This document shows positions 1,264 to 22,658 of a stretch of 22,658 nt of DNA, piece after piece. The stretch spans positions 1 through 22,658 of the IMG/VR virus record IMGVR_UViG_3300013102_000076. One strand, given 5' to 3'. The notes under the pieces were generated by a model. It was not told the DNA's origin. It worked only from the letters and a program-made list of their open reading frames with translations, and searched no databases. The position numbers and the translations under genes are program-made. The first letter of the stretch is position 1. Every line of letters starts with the position of its first letter. The stretch is from a virus.

Positions 1264-1339
<76 letters not shown>

Positions 1340-1341
1340 TC

Positions 1342-1706
1342 TAAATCAAGGGTTCCAGCCGCTTCGTGCGACGCCATACCAGCGGCGACGTAACAAGCAA
1401 CGTAACAAGCGGCTGAGGAAGAGTGCAACGGCGTCAGCCAGCCAGAGAGTGAGTCTGGCAGTTAGAGCCTGCATGAGTGAGACGGCGAGAGTCTCGGCCG
1501 TGAATCCCTCCTCCCCCACTGCGAAAGCAATTTTTCAGGTTGGCGAAAAAAGTAGGTTACTGAGGTTACTTTTTTTTCTAATCACCCTCTATCCCTTGCC
1601 AGACAAGGCTTCCAGCGGTTTGGCCAAAAGTTTTTTTCAGGTTATTTGAGGTTATTAGTAACTTTCCAGACAGGTTACTTCCCTCCAGGCTGAAACCCTT
1701 GATCTA
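1342..1706. repeat. 19-bp imperfect inverted repeat flanking the attL candidate region
   Basis: TAAATCAAGGGTTCCAGCC (1342-1360), starting two bases after the tRNA CCA, recurs in inverse orientation at 1688-1706 with 17 of 19 matches. Between the arms, at 1388-1410, ACGTAACAAGC is present twice in tandem with a 12-bp period. Such repeats next to a tRNA 3' end fit arm-type binding sites of a tyrosine recombinase, but no integrase gene is in the window to support this. Confidence 0.55.
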
Positions 1707-1936: not shown

Positions 1937-2021
1937 CCTGCCAACCCCCGTACAGCCCCAGTAGCGGCGCGGAACGGACCCAGGTGCAGGGCTGCAGAAA
2001 AAGCGACACATTTAGACCGCG

Positions 2022-2051
2022 GGCGTGGCGGGGGGACGACGGCGCGCGCCG
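2022..2051 (+). other. Candidate cos site (cohesive end)
   Basis: GGCGTGGCGGGGGGACGAC at 2022-2040 matches 14 of 19 positions of the P2 cohesive end as I recall it (GGCGAGGCGGGGAAAGCAC), including the first eleven apart from one base. It abuts a 12-bp perfect palindrome, CGGCGCGCGCCG (2040-2051). Its location, gene-free and upstream of the cargo genes and Q, is where cos lies in phiCTX-type genomes. The P2 sequence is from memory and no cleavage data exist here. Confidence 0.5.
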
Positions 2052-2282: not shown

Positions 2283-2392
2283 TTTACACTCCGAAGCCGA
2301 GCAGAATCCTTGTGGAAGCTGTCAACTGAGCTGTAAACTGACAACCCATGTGTTAACCGCGTGTCGCGCGCTAACCTGTAAGGAGAGTCACC

Positions 2393-3193
2393 GTGAGCAC
2401 CAAGATGTCCAACGCTCCCGTCTATTTTGCTCTAGCCCAGGTTCAATTCAATCCTGTAGCTGCTATGCATAAGTACGTGGACGAAATTCAGGACCAGTTT
2501 CGTCGTAAGGGATATACCCTTTTCGAAACGAATCATGTTGCTCACGTACAGTTTTCTGCTGTTTCTGCTGTTGACATGGGTCAACCAAAAGTTGAAACCG
2601 TAACGAACTGGAACTTCTCAAAAGCCGGGAAGGAAATTGGATTTCTCTTAAACAATAACAGCCTGACACTACAGACGACATTCTACGAGAACAGAGAAGA
2701 GTTCATCCCCGAACTCCTTAATGGCGTCGAAATAGTTAATAGAGTAGTCGGGCTAGATCATATAAGCAGAGCTGGCCTTCGCTACTTGAATGCGGTAATT
2801 CCTAAAGAAGAAGAACATATAGAACAATACCTGGACTCAGGCTTCCACGGAATCGAATCCAAATTCAATAGGCGATACTCTCTTGACGAAATTGTTTTTG
2901 ACACCGAGTGCGGCCCACTAATAAGCGATGGCACTCTAGTAGTAAGAATATACTCTGCCCGCTCAGTGCTAGGATTTCCACCTGATCTATCGCTAAATGG
3001 GCTAATAGCAAATCCTAAATTTATTACGGAAAACCCATTGGTTCACTCGGTTATAGACATGGATCACTTCACGGATGGCAAAGTTGATCTTGACCTTGAA
3101 AAATTAAAGGATCAATTCTTCTCTCAACACGATGCAATTCGCGATGCTTTCCGAACAATTGCAACGCCGTATGCGCTTTCTGTGTGGGAGTAG
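2393..3193 (+). CDS. TIGR04255-like protein, first gene of cargo operon
   Basis: Encodes 266 aa from a GTG, chosen because AAGGAG (2380-2385) lies 7 bases upstream. The pattern fits the TIGR04255 family, whose biochemical role is unknown: an N-terminal segment (YFALAQVQFNPV), a WNFSKAGKEIGFLLNNNSL strand pair near residue 65, a central YENREEFIPELLNG helix, and the signature ISRAGLRYLNAVIP near residue 125. The C-terminus (LEKLKDQFFSQHDAIRDAFR) ends in the usual helix where a dimerising F..L...H....F..IT pattern is seen in relatives. No signal peptide or TM segment is present, so it should be cytosolic. It is much AT-richer than the phage genes and is followed by a gene only 4 bases after its stop, so the two are co-transcribed. 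Proteins of this family often sit in variable islands; a defence role is inference. Confidence 0.75.
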   Translation: MSTKMSNAPVYFALAQVQFNPVAAMHKYVDEIQDQFRRKGYTLFETNHVAHVQFSAVSAVDMGQPKVETVTNWNFSKAGKEIGFLLNNNSLTLQTTFYENREEFIPELLNGVEIVNRVVGLDHISRAGLRYLNAVIPKEEEHIEQYLDSGFHGIESKFNRRYSLDEIVFDTECGPLISDGTLVVRIYSARSVLGFPPDLSLNGLIANPKFITENPLVHSVIDMDHFTDGKVDLDLEKLKDQFFSQHDAIRDAFRTIATPYALSVWE

Positions 3194-3197
3194 AAAA

Positions 3198-3854
3198 ATG
3201 TATAGCGTAACTCACAGTCCTTACCAAGCAACTCGGGCAAAAACGCCTAGCACTGTAGTACAGAGAAGCACTGGCAACTCTTACATTCAAAGCTTTGCAA
3301 TGTTTGGACTCTTACTTTTGGGTACAGGGACATCCTACATCGCTGAGCGCATTCCATATTGGCGAGACCATGTTCAAAGTCGGGTACCTTTTGTAGTTGA
3401 AAAGCAAGGGCATCAGCCTACGCCTAAGGCTGTAGATATGCGGATGCCTGTCGCTCATCTCGACAATATCAAAAGCTCTTTGCTTACCTCGGTATCTGAT
3501 ATTTCCGTAGCACTCGGAGTGACAAGACAATCCATATATAAGTGGAGCGCAGGATCAGCTTTTCCTGATTCAGAACATATGCGCAAGCTATTGAAACTGA
3601 GCGGCATCGCAGATCAATTCCAGGCTGCCGGTATCAAAAACGCCTCATCACTCGTTAAAATGAAAATGTTTGATGGGCGCTCTCTTGTTGAGCTACTGAA
3701 AGACCAAAAAGACACTACAAACGCAGTTTCCATACTTATTTCAGAAGCAGAGATTATGGAAAAAGCACATGCTAAATCTAGAATTAGCTACTCCAAAACC
3801 AAACCAGATAATTCTTGGCAATCTGATATTTCATTGCCAGGAGGAATCGGCTAA
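3198..3854 (+). CDS. Membrane-anchored helix-turn-helix protein, second gene of cargo operon
   Basis: Encodes 218 aa. The ATG at 3198 was chosen because GGGAG (3186-3190) lies 7 bases upstream; an upstream ATG in the same frame would overlap the preceding gene. Residues 29-48 (YIQSFAMFGLLLLGTGTSYI) form one membrane helix, followed by a linker. Residues about 99-134 are an XRE-type HTH: SDISVALGVTRQSIYKWSAG, with the typical ALGVTRQSIYKW recognition helix. The segment after it (MKMFDGRSLVELLKD, then a helix with ILISEAEIME) weakly recalls the toxin-binding tail of Xre/MbcA antitoxins. A DNA-binding domain tethered to the membrane would suit a sensor or regulator, or DNA recruitment to the envelope. 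It lies 4 bases after the first gene and 17 before the third. Exact function unknown. Confidence 0.75.
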   Translation: MYSVTHSPYQATRAKTPSTVVQRSTGNSYIQSFAMFGLLLLGTGTSYIAERIPYWRDHVQSRVPFVVEKQGHQPTPKAVDMRMPVAHLDNIKSSLLTSVSDISVALGVTRQSIYKWSAGSAFPDSEHMRKLLKLSGIADQFQAAGIKNASSLVKMKMFDGRSLVELLKDQKDTTNAVSILISEAEIMEKAHAKSRISYSKTKPDNSWQSDISLPGGIG

Positions 3855-3871
3855 GAACTGGAGTGCAGTAA

Positions 3872-4705
3872 ATGCTTGATCGTGACACTTTGTGGAGACA
3901 AGGTAGTATTTTCCGCACATCGGACGCTCAAGCAATTGGTCTTTTTGATGGCGAAGAGGGAGCTGTCGCAATCGTAGTAACTCACGACTGCGACATCCCT
4001 AATGCTAGGGAAGACGAACTTGAAGTAATCGTTGGTAGGTTTTGCCAAAAAGATAAGATGTTTGCAAACGCTAAGAACCCTAGGCGGCTACATCTTGCCT
4101 ATCAAAAAGGCGATGAAGAGTTTGTAATTGACCTGCATCAGACTGATAAGCAGTACGTCGGAAAATCGAGCTTCCAAGAAATTGGACAACCTGATGACTC
4201 TTACTACTTATCAGACGAGCAAAAGAGAGCGTTGAAACAGTGGTTGGCAGCTAGATACGGCAGGCCTGCTTACCCAAACAGCTTTGAAAACCGTCTAACA
4301 AGTCGAGATTCAAAAAAATCGCGCCTAGAAAAAGAAGTCGCAAGTGTTCTGACTGAGAAGTCAGAACATATTATCGCGCTTTTCTTTGACCTTGATGAAT
4401 ATCGAAACGTGGAGCTTTTGGGAGACGACCCATACATCCTACGGATAATCATCGCGTACGACGCGGTAGAAGGCGGCAGTCAAGCCCGCACCAGTGCCGA
4501 AGAAGCGGCCGCCCAAATCACCAGACTGTTTCATGAAAGATTCGGCACCCCCGATAACGCCACGGACATCGTGCTCGAAGACTGTACAGCGGTAGCAGAC
4601 ACTCAACTTTCTTTAGCAGATATTAGAAAGCTTGATCAATGGCGACTTGAATACGTGAGTATTCAGGACGAGCCACAGTCTCCGTACCTAGCCTCTGGGG
4701 AATAA
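3872..4705 (+). CDS. Unknown protein with THDCD motif, third gene of cargo operon
   Basis: Encodes 277 aa from the ATG at 3872, with GGAG (3860-3863) 8 bases upstream. It is soluble, acidic, with no TM segment. Near residue 30 comes AIVVTHDCDIPNARE, a beta strand leading into T-H-x-C-D; similar S/T-Q/H-x-C-D motifs occur in unassigned proteins of accessory islands, and the Cys/His/Asp cluster could be catalytic or metal-binding. The middle has basic stretches (RLTSRDSKKSRLEKEV) and the end carries LADIRKLDQWRLEYVS. I do not know the family and do not assign an activity. It ends the operon, and a strong terminator starts at its stop codon. It is AT-richer than the phage genes, although its 3' third (4450-4560) becomes GC-rich. 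Confidence 0.75.
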   Translation: MLDRDTLWRQGSIFRTSDAQAIGLFDGEEGAVAIVVTHDCDIPNAREDELEVIVGRFCQKDKMFANAKNPRRLHLAYQKGDEEFVIDLHQTDKQYVGKSSFQEIGQPDDSYYLSDEQKRALKQWLAARYGRPAYPNSFENRLTSRDSKKSRLEKEVASVLTEKSEHIIALFFDLDEYRNVELLGDDPYILRIIIAYDAVEGGSQARTSAEEAAAQITRLFHERFGTPDNATDIVLEDCTAVADTQLSLADIRKLDQWRLEYVSIQDEPQSPYLASGE

Positions 4706-4739
4706 ATCAAAGCCGCTTTTGAATGCGGCTTTGATTTTT
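4704..4739. terminator. Strong bidirectional terminator between cargo operon and portal gene
   Basis: ATCAAAGCCGC (4706-4716) pairs perfectly with GCGGCTTTGAT (4725-4735) around an 8-base loop and is followed by TTTTT. The flanking AAA/TTT lengthens the stem, and the reverse strand also ends in a T-rich tract. It would stop both the cargo operon and the convergent terminase-portal transcript. Confidence 0.9.
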
Positions 4740-4752
4740 GAGCATTAACAAA

Positions 4753-4847: not shown

Positions 4848-5855
4848 TTACTGTGGCAGTTGCGTGAGTTCGTATTGCCGGAAGCGGATCACCTCTTCCC
4901 CCAGCCATTCGTTGACCTGGGCCAGGCGAGCCTGCAGCGGCTCCAGCTCGTTGGCGGCGTAGACCAAGGCGGCATCGCGGATCGAGCCGAAACCGCCGGC
5001 GTTCTGGGGCACGATCCCCATCAGCTGCGGCGGGATCCGTAGGCCGGCGAGCATGTCGTCGCGGGTGATGCCCTTGATCGAGTTGAATTCGTCCTTCGCA
5101 GCCACCTCGCTGACCGGGATCAGCTGGATGCCGTCTTTCTTGCCGCCCGGGGCATAGACGAAGAGGTTGCGGAAGTTGCCCGGCCCCTTGGACTGGCGCA
5201 GCGCGGTGCGGACGTTGTCGATGTCCTCCTCCTTCTGCGCCGGGTCGGTCATGTAGAAGATGAAGCCGGCGTGACTGCCGTTGTTGTAGTACTTCCGGCG
5301 GAACAGCGTGGCCGACTCGTTGAGCAGCGCGGACTGCATGGCCGCGAGCCACTCGGGCATGCCGTAGATCTCCTGGTTGATGTCGGCCTCGCGCAGGTGG
5401 CAGATGGTGCCCGGGGTGAATTCGTGCTCGTCTTGCCACCCGCGCACCTGGAAGAAGCGGTTGTCCTCGCCCCGGCGCATGTATTTGGCCAACGGCGGCT
5501 GCAGGCTGACCGGCGTGCCGAGGCGCGATTGGCGACGCTCCAAGTACGCATTGCCGGACCAGAGCCAGTCCAAGGCGAACTGCTCGAACGCCGCACGGCT
5601 CAGCAGGCGATGCGGGATGAAGGTGCGGGCCAGCATGTTGCGCTTGAACTTGAGCCCGGAGTCCAGATAGACGCTGGCCCGCGTGGCCTTGGCCAGCCCG
5701 TCGAGCGATAGCGGCGGGTCGTAGTAGCGGCCGTTGAACCAGCATTCCAGGTAGTCGAAGACCTCGCGGCCTTCCAGCACCGGCATGGGATCGCCGAAGG
5801 TAAAGGCCTCGATAGGGCCGGGCGTCGAAACGGCCAGCTCGGTGGATTCGCTCAT
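4848..5855 (-). CDS. Q: P2-type portal protein (GpQ)
   Basis: Dodecameric portal at one capsid vertex through which DNA is packed; binds the terminase. Encodes 335 aa, near the usual ~340. Recognisable family stretches are AFTFGDPMPVLEGREVFDYLE at the N-terminus, the central LDWLWSGNAYLERRQSRLG, HLREADINQEIYGMPEWLAA, and GITRDDMLAGLRIPPQLMGI near the end. The start is MSESTEL at 5855, overlapping the terminase stop by one base (TGATG) with GGAGAT a few bases upstream; longer frames extend into the terminase gene and are not needed. It is translationally coupled to the terminase gene and transcribed away from the other structural genes, as in P2. It ends against the bidirectional terminator. 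Confidence 0.95.
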   Translation of the reverse strand: MSESTELAVSTPGPIEAFTFGDPMPVLEGREVFDYLECWFNGRYYDPPLSLDGLAKATRASVYLDSGLKFKRNMLARTFIPHRLLSRAAFEQFALDWLWSGNAYLERRQSRLGTPVSLQPPLAKYMRRGEDNRFFQVRGWQDEHEFTPGTICHLREADINQEIYGMPEWLAAMQSALLNESATLFRRKYYNNGSHAGFIFYMTDPAQKEEDIDNVRTALRQSKGPGNFRNLFVYAPGGKKDGIQLIPVSEVAAKDEFNSIKGITRDDMLAGLRIPPQLMGIVPQNAGGFGSIRDAALVYAANELEPLQARLAQVNEWLGEEVIRFRQYELTQLPQ

Positions 5856-7666
5856 CAGAAAATCTCCATGACGCCGGTATTGCGGGCGGTCTGCCCTTCC
5901 AGCGGCTCGTTGTGCAGGGCGTGAAAGAGGGCCCACGCGAGATCCGCGTGGCCAGTGGTGTCGTTGCGTCCGGCCGTGTAGGTGAACTGGCGGCCGCTGG
6001 CGGTGGTGGTCTTGCGGATAGCCATCAGCGACTGGGCGACGTCAGTCCAACCGGCGTCGAATTCGAGCCGGCCGTTCTTGATTACGTCGTAGGCCTTGAG
6101 CACCAGGCGGGTCTTCACCTCGGGCGAGTAGCTGAAGGTGGTCAGGTTCGGGAAGAACTGGCGCACCAGCTGGGCCACGCCGCTGCCCATGCCGGTGACA
6201 TCGATGCCGATATAGGTCACCCAGTAGCGCTGGCAGACCTGGCGGATCGCCTCGGCCTGGGCGGCGAAGTCCATGCCGCGGAACTGGTGGCGCTCGAGCA
6301 CGCGGAACTTGCCGCCCGGTACAAGCGGCGGCGCGACCACCACCAGGCCAGCGGTGTCGCCGGTCTCGGCCGGGTCATAGCCGACCCAGACCGGGCGCTC
6401 GCCCAATGGCCGGCTGGCGAAGGGTTTGTAGTCCTCGGCCCACTCGACCCAGCTGTCCACCATGCAGGGCTGCAGCATGGCCAACGGGAAGATGCTCGCG
6501 CCGTCGTCGACGAACTGGCACATCAGCAGGTTCTGGAAGGCCTCGGCCGAGTATTCGAGCTTGAGCTCCTCAAGGTCGAAGAGGTCGCAGCCGCGGGACT
6601 CGGCGTCCAGGATGGTGACGATCTGCCGCCAGATCCTGTCTTCGCAGAGCCGGCCCTCCTGCAGGGCCTCATGGGAGACGTCCAGCTTGAGGTGCTGGGC
6701 GACGGGCTTGCCCTTGTTGAAGCGCTCGCCGGTCCAGAAGGTATAGGCCTCATGGGCCATCGAGCTCGGCGTCGAGAAGTAGGTCCGGCGGTATTGCTTC
6801 TGCATGGCCATGCCGCTGGCCACCTTGTTCAGCTCCTCGAAGCGGAAGGTCCAGAAGAATTCGTCGAAGTAGAAGTTACCGTGGTAGCCCTGGGCGGTGC
6901 GGGCATTGGTACCGAGGAAATGCAGCTCGGCGCCGTTGGCCAGGATGATCGGATCGCCAGTTACATCGACGCCACAGACCTCCCGGGCGAAGGCCTGGAT
7001 ATACGCCTTGAAGATATGCGCCTGGTTCTTGCTGGCCGAGAGGAAGATCTGGTTGCGCCCGGTGATCAGGGCGTCCAGGAAGGCCTCGCGGGCGAAGTAG
7101 TAGGTGGCGCCGATCTGCCGGCTCTTGAGGATGGCGCGGGTCCGCTGCTGGCCTGCCCGATACCAGTCCAGCTGGTAGCCGAAGCACTGGTCGCGGAAGG
7201 CGCTCTCAAGGGCCTCGATCTGCTCCTCGGTGAATTCGTTGCGCGCGGCCTTCTTCTTCGGCCCGGCGTTGCGATTGTCCAGCTTGGGATTGAGCTCGGC
7301 CTCTGTACCGCCGCCCTGGAATCGCTGGATCCGCGCCTGGCGTTCCAGCTGGCGGTGCAGCAGGTCGATCTCCTTGAAGTCGCCGCCGGTCTTGCTGTCC
7401 TTGAGGATCAGCTGCACCAGGCGCGCCTCCAGGGCGCCGCCGATCCGCTCGACGTTGTCCGCCCGATCCCATTCGTCCCGGGCCTTCCAGCTGTGGACGG
7501 TCTTTTCCTTCTCGCCAATCGCCTCGGCGATCTCCGTCACCCGCCAACCCATCCAGTACAGGTGCTTTGCGCGTCGACGCACGTCCATCAGCAGGTCGGT
7601 GGACGGGGCGGCTGCCGGCGTTTCGGCCGGGCTTGGCATGGGCGAGGAATCGGATAGGCTTTTCAT
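5855..7666 (-). CDS. P: P2-type terminase large (ATPase) subunit (GpP)
   Basis: Encodes 603 aa (P2 GpP ~590). It translocates DNA into the prohead and, with GpM, cuts cos. An N-terminal HTH spans residues ~41-62 (WRVTEIAEAIGEKEKTVHSW). The ATPase has the deviant Walker A KSRQIGAT (181-188) and Walker B YFDEF (266-270). The C-terminal RNase H-like nuclease shows D431 (VGYDPAETGDT), D489 (GIDVTGMG) and D575 (GHADLAWALFHAL). The start at 7666 has no good ribosome site: GGAGGAGGGG is 23 bases upstream (7690-7699), with no start codon at a proper distance. Met10 and Met27 are no better placed, so the true start or a leader effect is open. First gene of the leftward P-Q operon. Confidence 0.96.
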   Translation of the reverse strand: MKSLSDSSPMPSPAETPAAAPSTDLLMDVRRRAKHLYWMGWRVTEIAEAIGEKEKTVHSWKARDEWDRADNVERIGGALEARLVQLILKDSKTGGDFKEIDLLHRQLERQARIQRFQGGGTEAELNPKLDNRNAGPKKKAARNEFTEEQIEALESAFRDQCFGYQLDWYRAGQQRTRAILKSRQIGATYYFAREAFLDALITGRNQIFLSASKNQAHIFKAYIQAFAREVCGVDVTGDPIILANGAELHFLGTNARTAQGYHGNFYFDEFFWTFRFEELNKVASGMAMQKQYRRTYFSTPSSMAHEAYTFWTGERFNKGKPVAQHLKLDVSHEALQEGRLCEDRIWRQIVTILDAESRGCDLFDLEELKLEYSAEAFQNLLMCQFVDDGASIFPLAMLQPCMVDSWVEWAEDYKPFASRPLGERPVWVGYDPAETGDTAGLVVVAPPLVPGGKFRVLERHQFRGMDFAAQAEAIRQVCQRYWVTYIGIDVTGMGSGVAQLVRQFFPNLTTFSYSPEVKTRLVLKAYDVIKNGRLEFDAGWTDVAQSLMAIRKTTTASGRQFTYTAGRNDTTGHADLAWALFHALHNEPLEGQTARNTGVMEIF

Positions 7667-7713
7667 GGCCGCCAGACTGCCGCCCTGATCCCCTCCTCCA
7701 TAGCGCGCGAACG

Positions 7714-7775
7714 TGTACCGTGCGCGCCTACAAAACCCCCTCGTTGCTGGGACGCGCGCGCGTCCCGACCATGCC
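7714..7775 (+). promoter_or_regulatory. Late promoter of the O operon (and perhaps divergent P operon)
   Basis: Activator-type inverted repeat TGTA-N11-TACA (7714-7732, centre 7723), then 20 bp, then CGCGCGCGCG (7753-7762), then CCATGCC (7769-7775) as a -10-like element about 46 bp from the centre. The same three-part layout precedes V and FI. P2 late promoters have an Ogr/Delta site TGT-N12-ACA centred near -55, which would put the start near 7778. Only one such dyad lies in the P-O divergent region, so it may serve both directions. Confidence 0.7.
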
Positions 7776-7820
7776 CCTCATCGCCCAAGCACTCCCGCTA
7801 AGCCTCTGAGGATCCCCGGC

Positions 7821-8666
7821 ATGGCCGACCCCAAGACCCCCAAACTCCGCTCTCCTTTCTTCCGTGTCGCCGTCGAAGGCGCTACCAGCGATGGCCGTCA
7901 GATCGAGCGCGCCTGGATCGAGCAGGCCGCGGCCAGCTACAACCCCAAGACCTACGGCGCTCGCATTTGGATGGAGCACATCCGCAGCAGCGTGGCCGAC
8001 AGCCCCTTTAAGGCCTACGGCGACGTGGTGGCGGTCAAGGCCGAGGAGGTCGAGATCAACGGCCAGAAAAAGCTGGCCCTCTTCGCCCAGATCGAGCCCA
8101 CCGCCGACCTGGTGGCCCTGAACAAGGCCAAGCAGAAGATCTACACCTCGATCGAGATCTCGCCCAAGTTCGCCGACACCGGCGCCGCCTACCTGGTCGG
8201 CCTGGGCATCACCGACAGCCCGGCCAGCCTGGGCACCGACGTCCTGTCCTTCGCCGCGGCCAACCCCGCCGGCAACCCCTATGCCGGCCGCAAGCAGCAC
8301 GCCGACAACCTCTTCACCGTGGCCGAAGAGACCGCCCTCACCTTCGCCGAAGTCGAGGACAAGCCCAGCCTGGGCGTGATGCTCCTGGCCAAGGTCACCG
8401 AGCTGCTCAAGGGCAAGGAAGCGCGCACTGAAGGCGAGTTCGCCCAGTTCGGCGCTGCCGTCACCGCGGTGGCCGAGCACGTTCGCGAGCAGGACGGCCG
8501 CTTCACCAACGCGGAAGCCGCTCTCGCCGAGCTGGCCGGCAAGCATGCGCAGCTGCAGACCGACTTCACCGCCCTGCAGGTGCAGCTCAGCCAGACCCAA
8601 GACCCCAACCAGACCAAACGCCCTCCGGTCACCGGCGGCGATGGCAAGACCCTGACCGACTGCTGA
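7821..8666 (+). CDS. O: P2-type capsid scaffolding protein / maturation protease (GpO)
   Basis: Encodes 281 aa. The N-terminal half is a serine protease that processes capsid, scaffold and portal, and the C-terminal half scaffolds the prohead. Start ATG 7821 (MADPKTPKLRSPFFRVAVEG) has GAGGAT upstream; the longer frame from 7713 would begin inside the promoter dyad. Asp24 (TSDGRQIERAW) and His53 (IWMEHI) correspond by a constant offset to the known P2 GpO catalytic Asp19 and His48, and Ser110 in YTSIEISPKF is the likely nucleophile. The C-terminal ~110 residues (TLTFAEVED to QTQDPNQTK) are an alanine-rich coiled coil, as expected for the scaffold. First gene of the rightward late operon. Confidence 0.94.
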   Translation: MADPKTPKLRSPFFRVAVEGATSDGRQIERAWIEQAAASYNPKTYGARIWMEHIRSSVADSPFKAYGDVVAVKAEEVEINGQKKLALFAQIEPTADLVALNKAKQKIYTSIEISPKFADTGAAYLVGLGITDSPASLGTDVLSFAAANPAGNPYAGRKQHADNLFTVAEETALTFAEVEDKPSLGVMLLAKVTELLKGKEARTEGEFAQFGAAVTAVAEHVREQDGRFTNAEAALAELAGKHAQLQTDFTALQVQLSQTQDPNQTKRPPVTGGDGKTLTDC

Positions 8667-8694
8667 TCAGCCGTTCACTTTCCCGGAGAGATCC

Positions 8695-9711
8695 ATGCGT
8701 AACGATACCCGTGCCCTGTACACCGCCTACCTGGCCCAAGTCGCTGCCCTGAGCGGCGTGTCCTCGGCGAGCGCCACCTTCGCTGTCGACCCCACCGTCC
8801 AGCAGAAGCTGGAAACCCGCATCCAGGAGTCCAGCGACTTCCTGAGCAAGATCAACATCATCGGCGTCGACGAGCTGCTCGGCCAAAAGGTCGGCCTGGG
8901 CGTCTCTGGCACCATTGCCAGCCGCACCGATACCAGCGGCTCGGCCAGCCGGAATCCGCGCGACGTGTCCAGCACCGACAAGCAGGATTACAAGTGCGAG
9001 AAGACCGACTTCGACACCGCGATCCCCTACTCGCTGCTGGACGCCTGGGCCAAGTTCCCGGACTTCCAGGCGCGCCTGCGTGACGCCATCGTCAAGCGCC
9101 AGGCCCTGGACCGTTTGATGATCGGCTTCAACGGCACCAGCGCTGCGGCCACCACCAACCGCGCCACCAACCCGCTGCTCCAGGACGTCAACATCGGCTG
9201 GCTGCAGCAGTACCGCAACAACGCATCCCAGCGCGTGCTGAAGTCCGGCAAGGCCGAAGGCAAAATCGTGATCGGCACCGGCGCCGACGCCGACTACAAC
9301 AACCTGGATGCCTTGGTCTTCGACGCGGTCAGCAACCTGATCGACCCCTGGTACCGCAAGGATCCGGGCCTGGTAGTGATCCTCGGCCGCGACCTGGTCC
9401 ACGACAAGTACTTCCCCCTGGTCAACCGCGAGCAGGCACCCAGCGAGAAACTGGCCACCGACCTGATCCTGGCTCAGAAGCGCATGGGCGGCCTGCAGCC
9501 GGTCGAGGTCCCCTACTGCCCGGACAAGGGCATGCTCATCACCTCGCTCGAAAACCTGGCGATCTACTACCAAACCGGTGGCCGTCGCCGCTTCGTCAAG
9601 GAAGCGCCGGAGAAAAACCGCATCGAGAACTATGAGTCGAGCAACGACGCCTACGTGATCGAGGACTACGGCTTCGGCTGCTTGATCGAAAACATCGAGA
9701 CGGGCGTATAA
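8695..9711 (+). CDS. N: P2-type major capsid protein (GpN)
   Basis: Encodes 338 aa. Builds the icosahedral T=4 or T=7 shell; in P2 the N-terminus is trimmed by GpO. Family hallmarks: MRNDTRALYTAYLAQVAALS, the ESSDFLSKINIIGVDELLGQKVGL segment (residues ~43-66), the SLLDAWAKFPDFQARLRDAI helix, and the C-terminal YYQTGGRRRFVKEAPEKNRI, followed by YESSNDAYVIEDYG. Length matches P2 GpN (~357). GGAGAG lies 5-6 bases before the ATG. The gene is 28 bases after O and 3 bases before M, with very GC-biased codons that indicate strong expression. Confidence 0.96.
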   Translation: MRNDTRALYTAYLAQVAALSGVSSASATFAVDPTVQQKLETRIQESSDFLSKINIIGVDELLGQKVGLGVSGTIASRTDTSGSASRNPRDVSSTDKQDYKCEKTDFDTAIPYSLLDAWAKFPDFQARLRDAIVKRQALDRLMIGFNGTSAAATTNRATNPLLQDVNIGWLQQYRNNASQRVLKSGKAEGKIVIGTGADADYNNLDALVFDAVSNLIDPWYRKDPGLVVILGRDLVHDKYFPLVNREQAPSEKLATDLILAQKRMGGLQPVEVPYCPDKGMLITSLENLAIYYQTGGRRRFVKEAPEKNRIENYESSNDAYVIEDYGFGCLIENIETGV

Positions 9712-9714
9712 GCC

Positions 9715-10416
9715 ATGGCCTCCTCTCCCGCGAAACGGCACTTCCTGGCAGCAGCAGCGGCAATCGCCGCTGCTGCAGTCGGGCCGGCCGACAGCATGGC
9801 GGGCCGTACCGTGTATGAGCAGCAGCTGGCTCAGCTGCTGCAGGACCGGCTGCGACTCAAACAGGTGCAATCCACCCAGGCCAAGGCCGAGCTCAAGCGG
9901 CAACTGCTCGGCGCCTATGCCGACTACGTCAGCGGCGTGCTCGAGGGCGGCAATGGCGCCCAGGACGAGGTGCTGGTCACCGTGATGATCTGGCGCATCG
10001 ATGCCGGCGACTTCTGGGGCGCGCTCCACATCGCTGCCTACGTGCTCAAGCACGGCCTGGTGATGCCGGATCGCTTCGCCCGGACCACCGGCTGCCTGAT
10101 CGCTGAAGAGGTGGCCACCGCCGCCCTCAACGCCCAGAAAGCTGGCCAGCCGTTCGAGCCGGACCTCCTGTTCTACACCGAGGCACTCACCGTCGAGCAG
10201 GACATGCCCGACGAGGCGCGCGCCAAGCTCTTTCTCGCCATCGGGCGGGCCTACATGGAGGGCATCGACGACGAACGCCCAGGCGCCGAAGGCCAGCTGG
10301 CCCGCGGCATCACCGCCCTGCAGCGAGCCATCAGCCTGCACGACCGCTGCGGCGGCAAGAAAGACCTGGAACGGGCCGAGCGCCTGGCCAAGAAACATGC
10401 CGCCCCTGGCGGCTAA
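9715..10416 (+). CDS. M: P2-type terminase small subunit (GpM)
   Basis: Encodes 233 aa (P2 GpM ~247). Partner of GpP in recognising and cutting cos; often annotated as the endonuclease subunit. It begins with SPAKRHFLAAAAAIAAAAVGPA, the typical SPA+RHF start of the family. The middle has DEVLVTVMIWRIDAGDFWGALHIAAYVLKHGL, and a helical region LQRAISLHDRCGGKKDLERAERLAKK lies close to the C-terminus. It starts 3 bases after the capsid stop. The alanine-rich N-terminal helix is longer in hydrophobic residues than usual but is not a signal peptide given its context. Confidence 0.92.
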   Translation: MASSPAKRHFLAAAAAIAAAAVGPADSMAGRTVYEQQLAQLLQDRLRLKQVQSTQAKAELKRQLLGAYADYVSGVLEGGNGAQDEVLVTVMIWRIDAGDFWGALHIAAYVLKHGLVMPDRFARTTGCLIAEEVATAALNAQKAGQPFEPDLLFYTEALTVEQDMPDEARAKLFLAIGRAYMEGIDDERPGAEGQLARGITALQRAISLHDRCGGKKDLERAERLAKKHAAPGG

Positions 10417-10434
10417 CCGAGCGGTCCCCCGCAA

Positions 10435-10450
10435 CCCCGCCGGCTCGGGG
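10435..10450 (+). other. Small hairpin between M and L
   Basis: CCCCG (10435-10439) pairs with CGGGG (10446-10450) in the 102-bp M-L gap, the longest gap inside the head operon. There is no T-run, so it is more likely an mRNA processing or stability element than a terminator. Nothing else is seen in the gap. Confidence 0.3.
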
Positions 10451-10518
10451 CGGATCGGCCAGGCTTAGCCTGAAACCGTGAAGCCCCGACCACCGGCGAC
10501 CCATTCGAGAGCAGCACC

Positions 10519-10980
10519 ATGAGCGGATTCGTTGCAGGCGGCACCGTCGCCAGCGGTCAGGTGGTGTCCGACCCTTTCTGGCCGGCGATCGAGCTGGACC
10601 AGGTCCGCGCGCGGTTGCGGATCGACAGCAGCGTCACCACGGAAAAGCTCAAGGCCGCCGTGATCGCCGCAGCCATCACCGTCAACCGCGAGCTCGCCGG
10701 CTACCGCTTCGCCCAGGCCACCAGCGGCTACGCCACCCTGGCCGCCGTGCCCGGGCTGCTGATCGACGGCGTCAGCGAGCGTGCCCACCTCTACCTGCGT
10801 GCGATCGATGCCGCCACCGCGGCCGAGGTCGCCGAGCGGTACCGCAGCTACGACAGCACCGCCAAGGGCGACAAGGACGCCGAGGCGGAGACCCCCACCA
10901 TCGACGACTACCGACGCGATCAGCGCTGGGCCATCCGCGACTTTCTGGGCCTGGCCCGGACCACCGTGGAGCTCATCTGA
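10519..10980 (+). CDS. L: P2-type head completion protein (GpL)
   Basis: Encodes 153 aa (P2 GpL 169). Seals the filled head before tail joining. Family features: FVAGGTVASGQVVSDPFWPAIELDQVRARLRIDSSVTTEKL at the start (placed within residues 4-45), NRELAGYRF in the middle, and YRRDQRWAIRDFLGLART near the end. ATG 10519 has a GAGAG-type ribosome site. The stop overlaps the start of X by one base (TGATGG), indicating translational coupling. Confidence 0.92.
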   Translation: MSGFVAGGTVASGQVVSDPFWPAIELDQVRARLRIDSSVTTEKLKAAVIAAAITVNRELAGYRFAQATSGYATLAAVPGLLIDGVSERAHLYLRAIDAATAAEVAERYRSYDSTAKGDKDAEAETPTIDDYRRDQRWAIRDFLGLARTTVELI

Positions 10981-11204
10981 TGGCCACCGTCGTGCGCGCC
11001 CAGCAAGGCGACACCCTGGACCGGATCTGCCTGCGGCATTACGGGCGCACCCAGGACGTCACCGAGGCCGCGCTCGAAGCCAACCCGGGCCTGGCTGAGC
11101 TGGGCCCCATCCTGCCGATCGGCACCCCAATCACCCTGCCAGACGCCCCCGCCCAGGTCTCTGCCGGCATCGCCGCGCAGCAGCCGGTCAGCCTCTGGGA
11201 CTAG
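10980..11204 (+). CDS. X: P2-type tail protein X (GpX), LysM-like
   Basis: Encodes 74 aa (P2 GpX 67). The fold is LysM-like: VRAQQGDTLDRICLRHYG, then VTEAALEANPGLAELGPIL, then PIGTPITLPD. It is thought to act in the baseplate hub or as a tail completion factor, possibly touching peptidoglycan. It overlaps L by one base, and its stop directly abuts the first holin start codon. Confidence 0.9.
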   Translation: MATVVRAQQGDTLDRICLRHYGRTQDVTEAALEANPGLAELGPILPIGTPITLPDAPAQVSAGIAAQQPVSLWD

Positions 11205-11531
11205 ATGAGAAACATCATGCCTGACCGTCCTGACTCCTGGGCCTGGTTCGCCACCTGGCTCGAACACAACTGGCCCGCCCTCTACGCCGCCATGGTCGCC
11301 TGCGTCATCGCCGGCCTCCGGATCGCCTACAGCGGCGGCACCCTGCGCCGCGTGCTGCTCGAGGCGCCCCTCTGCGGCGCCTTGGCCCTGGCCGCAAGCC
11401 ACGGCCTCTCCCTGCTGGGCATCCCTGCCAGCACCGGCCCCTTCTGGGGCGGAATCATCGGACTGCTGGGCGTCGAGGGCACTCGCGCCGCGGCTAAACG
11501 CTTCGTCGAACGCAAGGTAGAAACGCAATGA
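11205..11531 (+). CDS. Phage holin, lambda S-like family, with two possible starts
   Basis: Encodes 108 aa from ATG 11205, or 104 aa from ATG 11217. It makes the inner-membrane hole that triggers lysis. Three membrane helices are visible: WPALYAAMVACVIAGLRIAY, LCGALALAASHGLSLLG, and GPFWGGIIGLLGVEG, followed by a basic tail (RAAAKRFVERK). The start MRNIMPDRPDSW echoes the lambda S dual start (MKMPEK): two Met codons with a basic residue between, and each has a weak GA-rich ribosome site. MPDRPD is the usual family start. The stop overlaps the endolysin start (ATGA). Confidence 0.85.
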   Translation: MRNIMPDRPDSWAWFATWLEHNWPALYAAMVACVIAGLRIAYSGGTLRRVLLEAPLCGALALAASHGLSLLGIPASTGPFWGGIIGLLGVEGTRAAAKRFVERKVETQ

Positions 11532-12352
11532 ACCAGCCCAAGATCCTGATCATCGGCGCCCACGGCCTGGCCGTGCGCGACCTGCAGAAAGCCCTGGCTG
11601 CGGCCGGCTTTACCGTCGACCTGGACGGCGATTATGACGAAGGCACCGAGCACGCCGTCGAAGCCTTCCAGCGCTCGGTCGGCCTGGTGGCCGATGGCAT
11701 CGCCGGCCCCAAGACCTTCGCCGCTCTGCTCGGCAAGCGCGATACGCTACACCTGGGCTTTGCCGACCTCGAGCGCGCCGCCAAGACCCTGGGCGTTCCC
11801 GTCGCGGCCGTCCAGGCGGTCAACGAGGTCGAGTCCAGGGGCGAAGGCTTCCTGGACAATGGTCGGGTGGTGATCCTGTTCGAGCGCCACGTCTTCTACC
11901 AGCGCCTGGTCAAGGCCCACGGCCAGGCCGAGGCCGATCGCCTGGCTGCGCTCAATCCGAACCTGATCAACCCGAAGTCCGGCGGCTACGCCGGCGGCGC
12001 GGCCGAGTGGCAGCGTTTGACCTCGGCCCGGCAGATCGACGAGGCCTGCGCGCTGGAGTCGTGCAGCTGGGGCCTGTTCCAGGTCATGGGCTACCACTGG
12101 CAGGGCCTGGGCTATGTCAACGTCCAGGACTTTGTCACCCGCATGCAGGCCAGCGAAGCCGAGCAGCTCGAAGCCTTCGTCCGCTTCGTCAAGGCGGAGC
12201 CCGCGCTGCTTAAGGCGCTCAAGGCTGGCAAGTGGGCGGACTTCGCTCGCGGCTACAACGGCCCGGCCTACGCCCGCAACCTCTACGACGTGAAGCTCGA
12301 GCGCGCCTTCGCCCGCTACAGCGCCGCCGCCCCGGCTAAGGACGCCGCATGA
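11528..12352 (+). CDS. Endolysin: peptidoglycan-binding domain plus N-acetylmuramidase
   Basis: Encodes 274 aa. It cleaves the glycan strands of peptidoglycan once the holin opens the membrane. Residues ~10-68 are a PG_binding_1 three-helix domain (LQKALAAAGFTVDLDGDYDE, AVEAFQRSVGLVADGIAGPKT). Residues ~75-270 are an N-acetylmuramidase domain of the DUF3380 type: AVNEVESRGEGFLDNGR with the likely catalytic Glu100 or Glu102, VILFERHVFY, ALESCSWGLFQVMGYHW, and FARGYNGPAYARN. There is no signal or SAR helix, so it depends on the holin. ATGA overlap with the holin and with the next gene shows a compact lysis operon. Confidence 0.93.
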   Translation: MNQPKILIIGAHGLAVRDLQKALAAAGFTVDLDGDYDEGTEHAVEAFQRSVGLVADGIAGPKTFAALLGKRDTLHLGFADLERAAKTLGVPVAAVQAVNEVESRGEGFLDNGRVVILFERHVFYQRLVKAHGQAEADRLAALNPNLINPKSGGYAGGAAEWQRLTSARQIDEACALESCSWGLFQVMGYHWQGLGYVNVQDFVTRMQASEAEQLEAFVRFVKAEPALLKALKAGKWADFARGYNGPAYARNLYDVKLERAFARYSAAAPAKDAA

Positions 12353-12555
12353 TCGCCACCGATGCTGCGCAGCGCATCAAACCGGTCGACGGCGACGTTT
12401 TCGTCCTGCCGGCCGGTGCCTCGATCGAGGACGCCGAGCACCTGGCCGAAGCCATTCAGGCCGCAAAGCCGGGGGTCCGCGCCGTCGTCGTAATGGGTGA
12501 CCTCGAGCACCTGGACCAGGCGGCCATGGGCCGTGCTGGCTGGTACCGCCGATGA
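12349..12555 (+). CDS. Small conserved-looking protein in lysis cassette
   Basis: Encodes 68 aa: MIATDAAQRIKPVDGDVFVL, then DAEHLAEAIQAAKPGVRAVVVMGDLEHLD. It has alternating strand/helix character (VDGDVFVLPAG, helix, VRAVVVMGDL), with no TM segment or signal. It overlaps the endolysin stop by four bases (ATGA) and the Rz start by four, so it is embedded in a translationally coupled chain and is surely expressed. The position between endolysin and Rz-like gene suggests a lysis or regulatory role. I do not recognise a characterised family. Confidence 0.8.
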   Translation: MIATDAAQRIKPVDGDVFVLPAGASIEDAEHLAEAIQAAKPGVRAVVVMGDLEHLDQAAMGRAGWYRR

Positions 12556-12986
12556 TCAGCTGGAAGGAGAAGGCGCTCTTCGCGCTCGCCCTGGCTCTGA
12601 CGATCGCCGTGCTGTGCCTGACCCTCTATGCGCAGGGCCTGCGCATAGACCAGGCCAACCAGAAACGCGAGGCCGCTGAGGACCAGGTCACCCAACTGAC
12701 CGGCGAGCGCGACCACCTCACCGCCACCCTCAGCAAGCAGCGGGCCGCCCAGGCCCAGCTGCAGACCACCCAAACCGACCTGCGCCGCGAGATCGATGTC
12801 CGCAAGCGCCGGATCCAGGAGCTCGAATATGAAAACGCCGACCTCAAGGCTTGGGCTGGCCAGCCTCTGCCTGCTGCTGCTCGCCGGCTGCGCCAACGGC
12901 CCGTCCTCACCGGAGCCACGGCTTACCGTGAATGGCTGTCCAGTGGTAACGCGCTGCCAGCTGCCGTCGACCGCCCCGCGCAATAA
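12552..12986 (+). CDS. Rz-like inner-membrane spanin (LysB type)
   Basis: Encodes 144 aa. An N-terminal membrane anchor (ALFALALALTIAVLCLTLYAQG, residues ~8-29) is followed by a long coiled coil (residues ~30-95, rich in Q, E, R and K with heptad character), then a proline- and arginine-rich tail. This is the i-spanin layout: it pairs with the outer-membrane Rz1 lipoprotein to fuse inner and outer membranes in the last lysis step. ATG 12552 overlaps the preceding stop (ATGA). The Rz1 gene is nested in its 3' part in another frame. Confidence 0.9.
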   Translation: MISWKEKALFALALALTIAVLCLTLYAQGLRIDQANQKREAAEDQVTQLTGERDHLTATLSKQRAAQAQLQTTQTDLRREIDVRKRRIQELEYENADLKAWAGQPLPAAARRLRQRPVLTGATAYREWLSSGNALPAAVDRPAQ

Positions 12987-13086
12987 CGGCGAGCTCCTGG
13001 ACGATAGCGAGGCGCTGGAAGCGGCCTGGGCCGACTGCGCCGCCCAGGTCGATATGGTCTATGACGCCCAGCAGGCCCACCCATGA
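12829..13086 (+). CDS. Rz1-like outer-membrane spanin lipoprotein (LysC type), overlapping Rz
   Basis: Encodes 85 aa, read in a different frame from Rz, overlapping it by 158 bases. ATG 12829 was chosen because AGGAG (12817-12821) lies 7 bases upstream; the longer frame lacks this. A lipoprotein signal MKTPTSRLGLASLCLLLLAG leads to Cys21 in the lipobox LLAGC. The mature part is Pro- and Cys-bearing (SSPEPRLTVNGCPVVTRCQL) and longer than lambda Rz1. Its stop overlaps the R start (ATGA). Confidence 0.88.
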   Translation: MKTPTSRLGLASLCLLLLAGCANGPSSPEPRLTVNGCPVVTRCQLPSTAPRNNGELLDDSEALEAAWADCAAQVDMVYDAQQAHP

Positions 13087-13613
13087 ACAAGCCCGAGAGC
13101 CTGCGCGCGCACCTGCTCGCTGCCGTGCCGGAGCTGCGCCACAGCCCTGACCGGCTGCTGGTCTTCATCGACAAGGGCAAGCTGCGCTGCACCGCCGCGG
13201 CCAGCCTGTCCTGGGAGTACGGCTACGAGCTGCAGATCATCCTCACCGACTTCGCCGGCCACCCGGACGCCGTGATGCTGCCGCTGCTGGCCTGGGTCCG
13301 GGCGAACCAGTCCGAGCTCCTGGTCAACCTGGACAAGTCCGCCCAGGGGATCGGCTTCGAGGCCGACATCCTGGACAACTCCAAGGTGGACCTAGCGATC
13401 ACCCTGCCGCTCACCGAGCGCGTGGTCGTGAAACGCCAGCCGGACGACACCTATCAGCTCGAGCATGCACTGGAACGGCCCTGCACGGAGTACCAGGACC
13501 TCGGCACCTGGCAGGTCTTCGCTGATGGCGAGCTGCTGGCCGAATGGCAATCGGGATCCGCCGGCGACGCCCTGGCCCTGGAAACGCCGCACCCGGGCCG
13601 CAGCCGTGGCTGA
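13083..13613 (+). CDS. R: P2-type tail completion protein (GpR)
   Basis: Encodes 176 aa (P2 GpR 155). Needed with GpS to finish and stabilise the tail end that joins the head. Family wording: MNKPESLRAHLLAAVPELRH at the start, RLLVFIDKGKLRCTAAASLS, then FEYGYELQIILTDFAGHPD-like text (WEYGYELQIILTDFAGHPDA), LLAWVRANQSELL, and LPLTERVVVK. The C-terminal ~40 residues beyond LGTWQVFADGELLAEWQ are an extension. Coupled to Rz1 by ATGA and overlapping S by 8 bases. Confidence 0.91.
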   Translation: MNKPESLRAHLLAAVPELRHSPDRLLVFIDKGKLRCTAAASLSWEYGYELQIILTDFAGHPDAVMLPLLAWVRANQSELLVNLDKSAQGIGFEADILDNSKVDLAITLPLTERVVVKRQPDDTYQLEHALERPCTEYQDLGTWQVFADGELLAEWQSGSAGDALALETPHPGRSRG

Positions 13614-14052
13614 CCTCGAGGCGCTGGAGACCTGGCTCTCGCCGCTGCTGCAGAAGCTCGACGGTCGCGGCCGGGCCCAATTGGCCCGCAAGGCTGCCCA
13701 GCAGCTGCGCCGCAGCCAGCAGCAGCGTATCCGCGCCCAGGTGAACCCGGACGGCTCGCCGTTCGAAGCGCGCAAACCGCGGGATCTACGCGGCAAGAAG
13801 GGACGGATCAAGCGGCGCATGTTCGAGAAGCTGAAGATGGCCCGGTACCTCAAGGCCAAGGGCACGCCGCAACAGGCGGTGATCGGCTTCGCCGGCCGCG
13901 TCTCCCGCATCGCCCGCGTCCACCAGTACGGACTGACAGACCGCGCCGAACGCGGAGCTCCCGAGGTCCGCTACGCCCGCCGCGAATTGTTGGGTCTTAC
14001 CGCGACCGATCTAAAAGTCCTTCAAGTCTCTATACTCGATATGCTCGTATAA
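13606..14052 (+). CDS. S: P2-type tail completion protein (GpS), 3' end of altered base composition
   Basis: Encodes 148 aa (P2 GpS 150). Start is GTG 13606 (read MADLEALETWLSPLLQKL), overlapping the R stop; the longer frame upstream lies inside R and is a shadow. Family text: RRSQQQRIRAQVNPDGSPFE, ARKPRDLRGKKGRIKRRMFEKL (spread over residues 51-74), and IARVHQYGLTDR. From about 13985 the codons switch from GC-rich to AT-rich (TTG TTG GGT CTT, then CTA AAA GTC CTT) although the protein stays in family form (LLGLTATDLKVL). This suggests the junction of the adjacent insert lies inside S and brought a replacement 3' end. Confidence 0.92.
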   Translation: MADLEALETWLSPLLQKLDGRGRAQLARKAAQQLRRSQQQRIRAQVNPDGSPFEARKPRDLRGKKGRIKRRMFEKLKMARYLKAKGTPQQAVIGFAGRVSRIARVHQYGLTDRAERGAPEVRYARRELLGLTATDLKVLQVSILDMLV

Positions 14053-14093
14053 CGCTTGGGCTCTATCTTGAATAGCTTCTGAGGAAAACAATA

Positions 14094-14861
14094 ATGGCAC
14101 CTACAATTGTTGGCGCATGCAAACTTTGCCAAGAAGAAAAAAACCTCCATGACTCCCACATAATACCTAGGGCTTTTTTCAAGAAGATAAAATCAGGAAT
14201 CCCTCAACTCATAAGAATAGATACCGCACCCAATGGGACAGTCGGGCGAGATAACGCAAACTGGTCAGAATATTTACTTTGTGGCAGCTGTGAGGCTTTT
14301 TTAGAAAGGAGCTACGAAGGTTCACAAATTAGGAAATTACGCGACTACAGAGAAAATCTGAAATCTCCGGGACGCCTGACGTTAGTAAATTTTGAATACC
14401 AGAGGTTTTATCTGTTCTGGCTAAGCATCATCTGGCGAGCATCGGTTTCTTCTATGCCAGAGTTTGGCTCTGTCAGGCTCGAACCGAATATCGAAGAAAT
14501 GTGCCGAGTCCTTATCAAAGACAGAAGAACAGATGCTGTGTTAGATGCTTTTGCCAGACACTTCAAAATAGGAATTCTAAGAATTGCAGATGAGGAACTG
14601 GGATTCGATTCTAAAAAATTCCTAACCAGCTTCAGAAAGAGCACAGAAAACCAAATTGATCGATACTTTATAGCGATAGAAGGCTTTCTCATAGTTTTCC
14701 AAATTTCAAATCTAACCAACCTTGACTTACCTAGCGACTTTTCCAATCTCAAAAAGACATCTATCTTCAGGATTAGGAGAGTAGTTCCGCACAGAAACAT
14801 TGAGATAGTCAGGACCCTTGCTGACATGCAAGAAAAGGCTATTCAGCACTCCAATGCGTGA
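14094..14861 (+). CDS. AT-rich cargo gene: HNH-like zinc-binding protein
   Basis: Encodes 255 aa. GAGGAAAA lies ~8 bases before ATG 14094. The N-terminus holds C9-x2-C12, then H19-D-S-H22-IIPRAF, and C63-x2-C66-E: a four-Cys zinc knuckle around a D-S-H-I-I-P motif, as in HNH/endonuclease VII-like treble-clef proteins. Catalytic competence cannot be judged because the usual second Asn/His is unclear. The rest is helical, with an aromatic stretch (FYLFWLSIIWRASVSS, ~residues 105-120) and a conserved-looking IEGFLIVFQISN. No close homologue is known to me. It is strikingly AT-richer than both neighbours and inserted between S and V. A phage-exclusion or nuclease role is inference. Confidence 0.75.
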   Translation: MAPTIVGACKLCQEEKNLHDSHIIPRAFFKKIKSGIPQLIRIDTAPNGTVGRDNANWSEYLLCGSCEAFLERSYEGSQIRKLRDYRENLKSPGRLTLVNFEYQRFYLFWLSIIWRASVSSMPEFGSVRLEPNIEEMCRVLIKDRRTDAVLDAFARHFKIGILRIADEELGFDSKKFLTSFRKSTENQIDRYFIAIEGFLIVFQISNLTNLDLPSDFSNLKKTSIFRIRRVVPHRNIEIVRTLADMQEKAIQHSNA

Positions 14862-14959
14862 TGAGCCGGCTTGGAGCTTGACTCGGGTCGGACCTGACCA
14901 AGAGCGGTGACATCTGAGGCTGGCTACCGCGTCAAAGTGGCCGTCGTATTACTAAGACT

Positions 14960-15018
14960 TGTAGCGGACGCTGCTACACATCCCTCCGGCTGCACCTCGC
15001 GCGCGCGGCCGCCATCCT
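14960..15018 (+). promoter_or_regulatory. Late promoter of the V operon
   Basis: TGTAGC-N7-GCTACA (14960-14978, centre 14969), then 19 bp, then CGCGCGCGCG (14998-15007), then CCATCCT (15012-15018) 43 bp from the centre. Same layout as ahead of O and FI. If the activator site is near -55 as in P2, transcription starts around 15024, right at the V start codon (15026), so the V message would have almost no leader. Confidence 0.75.
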
Positions 15019-15025
15019 CCGCGGC

Positions 15026-15583: not shown

Positions 15584-15927
15584 TGAGCCGCGCAACGGGC
15601 CTGGCCGTCACCGAGCTCGAGGAGCTCCAGCAGTCGGTCGGCGACATCCTCACCACGCCGATCGGCACCCGCGTGATGCGCCGTCCCTATGGCTGCGACC
15701 TGTTCAGCCTGATCGATCAGCCGTTCAACGACGCCACCGCGCTGCAGGCCAAGGCCGTGGCCGTGATCGCCCTCATGCGCTGGGAGCCGCGGCTCAACCT
15801 CACCCGCATCGCGCTCACCCTGGGCGACGCCCCGGGCCAGGCCTTCGTCGACCTGGAGGGCTACAGCACCGTCACCAACGCCGCCGTTAGCCTGCGCGCC
15901 CCCCTGGTCTTTGGAGGCCTCGCATGA
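15580..15927 (+). CDS. W: P2-type baseplate wedge protein (GpW, gp25-like)
   Basis: Encodes 115 aa (P2 GpW 115), a member of the gp25/lysozyme-like baseplate family. Hallmarks: VGDILTTPIGTRVMRRPYGCDLFSLID (within residues 20-46), with the conserved T-P-x-G-x-R-x-M and RxxYGxxL motifs, and ALIRW-type ALMRWEPRLNLTRI. It starts ATGATG, so translation may begin at 15580 or 15583; 15580 overlaps the V stop. Coupled to J by ATGA. Confidence 0.94.
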   Translation: MMSRATGLAVTELEELQQSVGDILTTPIGTRVMRRPYGCDLFSLIDQPFNDATALQAKAVAVIALMRWEPRLNLTRIALTLGDAPGQAFVDLEGYSTVTNAAVSLRAPLVFGGLA

Positions 15928-19817: not shown

Positions 19818-19827
19818 GGACCAAGTC

Positions 19828-20517: not shown

Positions 20518-20532
20518 GAAGGTTTGCCGATC

Positions 20533-21403: not shown

Positions 21404-21442
21404 GTGCAGCGTCACCTACCCACCTGCGCAGGCAATCCCTCT

Positions 21443-22609: not shown

Positions 22610-22621
22610 TCCTGATCACCC

Positions 22622-22639: not shown

Positions 22640-22658
22640 CACTGGAGAGCTGCCCCCA

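Follow-up and report, generated by a model that had tools for sequence, protein, structure and literature searches.

A three-gene cassette in the cos-Q cargo slot of a Pseudomonas prophage is a candidate undescribed, autoregulated anti-phage system

P2-like prophages carry a hotspot that hosts tested defence systems (Rousset 2022, PMC9122126; Vassallo 2022, PMC9519451). One of these, Rst_3HP, protects against phage P1 and consists of three genes without clear domains that lie in the gpA-gpQ hotspot of P2-like prophages in E. coli (PMC9122126); according to DefenseFinder it is carried mostly on prophages (PMC9090908). The same E. coli hotspot holds partition and virulence genes too (PMC9122126). 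Among the toxin-antitoxin-chaperone (TAC) modules, CmdTAC is anti-phage, and a phage capsid protein titrates its chaperone (PMC11618068). Here we describe a three-gene operon, g1-g2-g3, in the IMG/VR record IMGVR_UViG_3300013102_000076 (22,658 bases; hereafter the window), which derives from a Citexvirus-like prophage (phiCTX-type, Peduoviridae) of Pseudomonas. The best reading of our results is that this trio is an undescribed, autoregulated, toxin-antitoxin-like anti-phage cassette with g3 as its effector.

The three genes almost certainly form one unit, as judged from their conservation together. A tblastn search with g3 recovered six plasmid copies, all six of which have a TIGR04255 gene, a helix-turn-helix (HTH) gene and g3 in identical order, and scanning genomes and viral contigs with an alignment added 107 further loci. 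When profiles of the three proteins were applied, the trio was contiguous, co-directional and in the same order in 110 of the 113 g3 loci; contig ends truncate two of the other three (L020 and L093), and the third (L114) is a short g3 fragment. Judging from record titles, partly of metagenome bins, these loci come from about ten phyla (Pseudomonadota, Nitrospirae, Chloroflexi, Cyanobacteria, Acidobacteria, Actinobacteria, Chlamydiae, Verrucomicrobia, Bacteroidota and Deinococcota). The pairwise divergences of g1, g2 and g3 correlate across 101 trios (Pearson 0.94-0.96). An earlier sequence-only reading of this stretch had proposed that the three products act as one system and had named a co-occurrence table across genomes as a check; this table strongly supports the proposal.

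Starting from g1 instead of g3 introduces less bias. We sampled 68 TIGR04255 genes in three groups of genomes: for 62 of them the next gene downstream is adjacent and co-directional, and in 18 cases a WxQG..[ST][HQ]xC protein is encoded after the TIGR04255 gene, as in the trio cassette. The presence of the family is sporadic: any TIGR04255 gene was found in 14 of 298 Pseudomonadaceae genomes. In viral contigs the alignment scan found 27 copies where a single-sequence scan found nothing; phage records contained no close relative of g1, and for g3 just two partial matches from Acinetobacter. Three individual loci deserve mention. The g3 fragment (L114:4698-5207) comprises the HDCD region only and lies on a phage-like contig without g1 or g2, which could make it a remnant or a phage-borne decoy. 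On the Klebsiella plasmid pVA126-339 (L006) the trio lies near a tape-measure gene, and an IMG/VR contig (L111) carries a trio with the same profile scores, suggesting a phage-plasmid.

The location of the trio in the cos-Q cargo hotspot of the P2 family is strongly supported. The left end of the window is bacterial DNA with a tRNA-Thr(TGT) at 1264-1339 (ARAGORN), and because the window from about position 1295 matches the first bases of Citexvirus Sirocco, attL is placed in the 3' half of this tRNA. The block that we assign as the probable cos region is ~82% conserved in the Citexvirus genomes Sirocco, Dobby and D14A. Its 12-mer GGCGTGGCGGGG is at chance level when taken alone; in the two E. 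coli P2-like prophages that were read upstream of the trio, the same cos-like sequence lies in the interval from a dinI-like gene to g1. The window trio thus sits between cos and Q, where P2-family phages carry cargo, and its GC content is 44.8%, against 64.8% in 4848-22658. Sirocco, Dobby and D14A have different genes in this cos-proximal slot. A match was found in 19 of 5,426 complete E. coli genomes. The five regions that we inspected each belong to a P2-like prophage in which the trio is flanked by a DinI-like gene and the portal gene, and this slot is the hotspot of the two 2022 studies cited above (PMC9122126, PMC9519451). One E. coli copy occupies 1027639-1029988 of NZ_CP027586.1 (proteins WP_000106358, WP_001368407 and WP_000961024). 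The sequence-only reading had put the trio at the cos/Q edge, and the Citexvirus matches, the conserved block and the E. coli prophages with the trio in the same slot all agree with this.

The genes found next to the trio in its hosts suggest an anti-phage or anti-mobile-element role, which we consider likely. We compared 211 proteins next to host-borne trios with PADLOC models, and many gave very strong matches, to a type I methylase (E = 1.7e-286), MzaE (2.6e-236) and a type IV restriction endonuclease (8.4e-198), as well as to dCTPase, JetD, AbiEi, AbiEii, SoFic, DruM, MzaD and a type III restriction endonuclease, the defence-neighbour matches spanning E-values from 1e-50 to 1e-286. As a control, we took 130 genes at arbitrary places in genomes with the trio, and these gave 24 family matches, mostly helicase cross-matches, the best at 6.6e-26; the contrast is large and the control small, drawn from few genomes, mostly Pseudomonadaceae, and counted by families rather than by genes. 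The candidate anti-phage function suggested in the sequence-only reading thus gains support from this comparison, short of proof. The trio could instead be ordinary accessory cargo, an autoregulated stress, maintenance or host-fitness module of prophages and plasmids that is not aimed at phages. Copies on plasmids, and the partition and virulence genes in the E. coli hotspot (PMC9122126), would agree with this, but the strong defence-gene neighbourhood, the sporadic distribution and the use of the cos-Q slot in several phage lineages speak against it, and we consider it unlikely.

We found no described system with this combination of proteins. A family name (TIGR04255) exists for g1 alone, and such a trio is described in neither PADLOC nor Pfam. 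The matches of the trio proteins in PADLOC-DB 2.0.0 were limited to weak cross-matches of the HTH (RmrA, mad1) and a chance match to Cas2; a full-text literature search returned no paper with TIGR04255 or the accessions of the E. coli trio proteins, and the passages found in the main text of DefensePredictor mention no such trio. The opinion of the sequence-only reading that no such system had been described thus holds across PADLOC, Pfam and the full-text searches. A rival here is the published, uncharacterised Rst_3HP, which shares the hotspot and the gene number; moreover g1-g3 lack a Pfam domain above cut-off, so they could be called three hypothetical proteins. The window trio and two E. 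coli trios match no relevant PADLOC-DB 2.0.0 model, although the presence of the 3HP models among these was not confirmed (the PADLOC accessions tried for them belong to LeoA, spbK, BnzA and DolB, none to 3HP). We regard identity of the trio with Rst_3HP as improbable.

Within the window, the trio has the layout of an operon (Table 1). The open reading frames and the GC content bear out the earlier description of three co-directional, AT-rich genes with gaps of 4 bases (g1-g2) and 17 bases (g2-g3); a ribosome site is visible by eye before each start (AAGGAG, GGGAG and GGAG), and the strong terminator described at the end is a hairpin followed by a T run. This hairpin, at 4704-4737, is absent from the list produced by a simple terminator scan.

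Table 1. Coordinates of the cassette and of the prophage features around it
Feature	Coordinates	Strand	Description
g1	2393..3193	+	266 aa, GTG start, TIGR04255 family
g2	3198..3854	+	218 aa; often a hydrophobic N-terminal stretch with [G/S]TG, then XRE/Cro-like HTH
g3	3872..4705	+	277 aa; WxQG...[ST][HQ]xC motif
Intrinsic terminator	4704..4740	+	13-bp hairpin 4704-4737, -20.0 kcal/mol, then T run
Conserved operator	2320..2345	+	direct repeats TGTCAAC-N5-TGTAAAC-TGACAAC, spacing 12 and 7
attL core	1295..1343	+	3' half of tRNA-Thr; identical to first ~48 bases of Citexvirus Sirocco; prophage left end
Probable cos region	1984..2050	.	contains GGCGTGGCGGGG at 2022-2033
Portal gene Q	4848..5936	-	open reading frame and DNA match to portal/terminase of Citexvirus phages; far boundary of cargo slot

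A conserved set of repeats precedes the cassette. At least one TGTMAAC half-site occurs upstream of g1 in 91 of 108 trios, compared with 6.2 in shuffles and 6 in control stretches within g1, and at least two occur in 74 of the 108, compared with 0.24 in shuffles. Successive half-sites form direct repeats with a spacing of exactly 12 bases in 60 pairs and of 19 bases in 19 pairs, the full form being TGTCAAC-N5-TGTAAAC-TGACAAC-N5-TGTCAAC. The strict pattern is found once in the window, at 2320-2338, and at four places in 11 genomes scanned, three of them directly upstream of g1. For three of these trio-bearing genomes, the site in front of g1 is the sole occurrence. These repeats are therefore a co-conserved candidate DNA site for the HTH of g2. 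The palindrome at 2270-2282 (TTGTCG-T-CGACAA), proposed earlier as the operator, does exist; it is not conserved, and we rejected it as the operator because the element enriched in relatives is the TGTMAAC direct repeat.

The HTH of g2 is recognized from a conserved helix pattern and from weak matches to phage regulators, its Pfam score being below cut-off (HTH_3, 12.9 bits against 23). In its recognition-helix region, SRQxxYxW, the R and the W are invariant in the alignment. Because of the conserved operator and this invariant recognition helix, g2 is very probably the autorepressor of its own operon.

Upstream of the HTH, g2 has a distinctive arm. A [G/S]TG motif is present there in 100 of 107 g2 proteins, with GTG itself in 83 compared with ~5 in shuffles; an S or G comes next, and often an F or Y shortly after. 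A hydrophobic segment is common in this region (Kyte-Doolittle values of at least 1.6 in 44 of 107 proteins, at least 1.3 in 74, below 1.0 in 20). Of the earlier description of g2 as a protein with one transmembrane helix and an XRE HTH, the XRE-type HTH stands on its helix pattern, while the transmembrane helix, common but not universal, was rejected as a defining feature. The GTG motif resembles a docking or switch peptide more than a membrane anchor, and the hydrophobic/GTG arm as a whole is a candidate chaperone addiction sequence.

These features bear on the model offered by the sequence-only reading, in which g2, tethered to the membrane, senses incoming DNA while g1 and g3 act as effectors or partners. 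The hydrophobic stretch before the HTH in many g2 proteins would suit such a sensor; however, at least 20 of the 107 lack it or have it in weak form, near-invariance is seen in the GTG motif instead, and the candidate target of the HTH is the cassette's own operator, whose position directly upstream of g1 points to autoregulation and not to sensing of foreign DNA. We therefore find this model poorly supported and very unlikely. That three unrelated cargo genes lie together by chance, for which nothing speaks beyond their missing annotation, is refuted by the recurrence of the same ordered trio across phyla with a shared operator, leaving it a negligible probability.

No sequence family was found for g3, but its predicted structure (AlphaFold2; mean predicted local distance difference test score, pLDDT, 89.6) hints at a toxin-like fold, the SH3-like barrel of MazF/PemK proteins. 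A Foldseek search of the PDB with the N-domain placed MazF first (probability up to 0.99, E = 0.02, template-modelling (TM) score 0.58 on the target), and PemK-like phage proteins were among the first matches in viral models (BFVD). The residues W8, Q10, G11, C40, D41, R71, W124, L125, R128, Y129 and R131 are invariant in the alignment. The T-H-x-C-D motif picked out by the sequence-only reading is present in g3; in the divergent relatives examined only its Cys40 is kept, Asp41 being replaced by Asn or Thr. Natural breaks occur in g3 in four loci, with g1 and g2 intact everywhere apart from contig-end cuts. A Meiothermus plasmid copy (L004:6001-6085) has a TAG at the invariant Trp of g3 and intact g1 and g2, and the other three copies show a stop just past the CD motif (L050), a frameshift (L051) and a truncation (L052). 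We estimate the chance that all four breaks would fall in g3, if breaks occurred by gene length, at about 2%. This preferential breakage fits g3 as a costly partner, and we put even chances on g3 being a toxic effector.

g1, earlier described as TIGR04255-like, is a true member of the family: it matches the NCBIfam model with E = 2.9e-38 and 132.1 bits, above the curated cut-off of 30, over residues 4-265 (model 1-251). It is predicted to be a pseudo-duplicated alpha+beta protein (AlphaFold2 pLDDT 93) for which Foldseek gave no confident structural relative, the best matches being low-TM AdoMetDC/PII/TBP-like; a PDB sequence search with g1 and g3 gave no match. Its invariant residues in the alignment are Q33, R37, G128, R130, E166, D222, D224, F253 and W265. 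The idea of a duplicated SecB-like chaperone, suggested by strand order, is unsupported, SecB being absent from the list of the 50 top structural matches. The role that we propose for g1 is that of a sensor, adaptor or chaperone; a sensor/chaperone function is put forward tentatively, as somewhat less than an even bet.

We propose that the trio is a mobile, self-regulated conflict cassette that would shield its lysogen from other phages by abortive infection of a toxin-antitoxin-like kind, a scheme that we hold with about equal belief and doubt. The toxin-antitoxin-like reading follows from the HTH regulator, the fold resembling that of toxins of such systems and the preferential loss of g3. 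The HTH of g2 would bind the TGTMAAC direct repeats and repress its own operon, and its N-terminal arm, which is poorly ordered and bears the GTG motif, would dock on g1 and/or g3, so that g3 is kept inactive. g1 might read an infection signal or stabilise g2. Upon binding of a phage product to g1, or upon loss of g2, the complex would open, and freed g3 may then use the site around Cys40 to act on RNA or some other target in the cell, so that the infected cell stops.

Several observations weigh against this scheme. The neighbour control is narrow, as described above. The likeness of g3 to MazF is at the fold level only: PemK (PF02452) is not among the families listed in a Pfam scan of 77 g3 proteins, an hhalign comparison of g3 with PemK gave a probability of 0.1% (with a PemK alignment of only four sequences), and by inspection the catalytic Arg29 and Thr52 of E. 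coli MazF have no counterpart in the g3 alignment. g3 as a MazF family member was accordingly rejected, since the sequence and catalytic tests fail. The broken g3 copies are few, and three of the four were found in metagenome bins, so that sequencing errors may play a part. Finally, in contrast to TAC modules, no SecB-like chaperone was found in the trio, g1 being a TIGR04255 protein with a different predicted fold.

TIGR04255 is also the first gene of other cassettes. In four loci (L141-L144) a TIGR04255 gene comes first and is followed by two tightly linked co-directional genes that are unrelated in sequence to g2 and g3 of the window. The second encodes a 'GWDG' protein with a weak match to the PADLOC candidate PDC-M32A (E about 3e-4). 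The third has HALIL/NPAHAEI, and L142 adjoins a phage late-control gpD-like gene. It is conceivable, though we lean against it, that TIGR04255 is a common infection-sensing or effector-gating platform, the first gene of a superfamily of small cassettes for defence in which an arm-bearing regulator (gene 2) and an effector (gene 3) are exchanged; a new class of effectors would then have the WxQG/Cys40 protein of the window as its founder, with the GTG arm of g2 serving as a switch peptide. A limit on this view is that 62 of the 68 sampled TIGR04255 genes have an adjacent partner but only 18 of the 68 belong to this cassette type.

Other candidate cargo was seen in the window and in a related prophage. 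An AT-rich open reading frame at 14094-14861 (+; 255 aa, 41% GC) lies between tail-completion and baseplate genes, a second P2-family cargo region; it has a CxxC...HxIPRAFF-like motif and no Pfam match, and its relatives were found only in Acinetobacter phages. Another candidate, at 20524-21342 (+; 272 aa, 49% GC), with hydrophobic segments and no Pfam family above cut-off, lies between tail-fibre assembly and sheath genes. In a trio-bearing E. coli P2-like prophage, a TIR-domain protein is encoded ahead of the baseplate V gene (L117:20191-20991).

If the cassette is confirmed, an unnoticed defence cassette of many phyla, of E. coli P2-like prophages and of plasmids would gain a function, and so would TIGR04255, so far a name without a meaning. 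The operator, the GTG arm and Cys40 are directly testable handles, and the E. coli copies simplify a laboratory test. The partner exchange behind TIGR04255 suggests one sensor for several effectors.

Compared with known systems, the trio shares the cos-proximal cargo site of Peduoviridae with tin/old of P2 and ctx of phiCTX, whose genes are unrelated to it. With Rst_3HP it has in common that its three genes lack Pfam domains and lie in the gpA-gpQ hotspot of P2-like prophages. For the N-terminal barrel predicted in g3, the closest folds are MazF in the PDB and, among viral models, PemK-like proteins; unlike these, g3 has an additional C-terminal alpha/beta domain and its own WxQG...[ST][HQ]xC motif, no sequence-profile similarity to them, and no conservation of the catalytic Arg/Thr. 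TAC modules (CmdTAC and HigBA1-SecB of Mycobacterium tuberculosis) differ from the trio in gene order and in having a known toxin domain. By the tests made, then, the trio is not a TAC system and g3 is not a member of the MazF family. The trio resembles TAC modules in having three genes that look autoregulated, with an antitoxin-like HTH/disordered protein and a partner that may stabilise it and sense phages, and TAC systems such as CmdTAC may therefore be its functional analogue.

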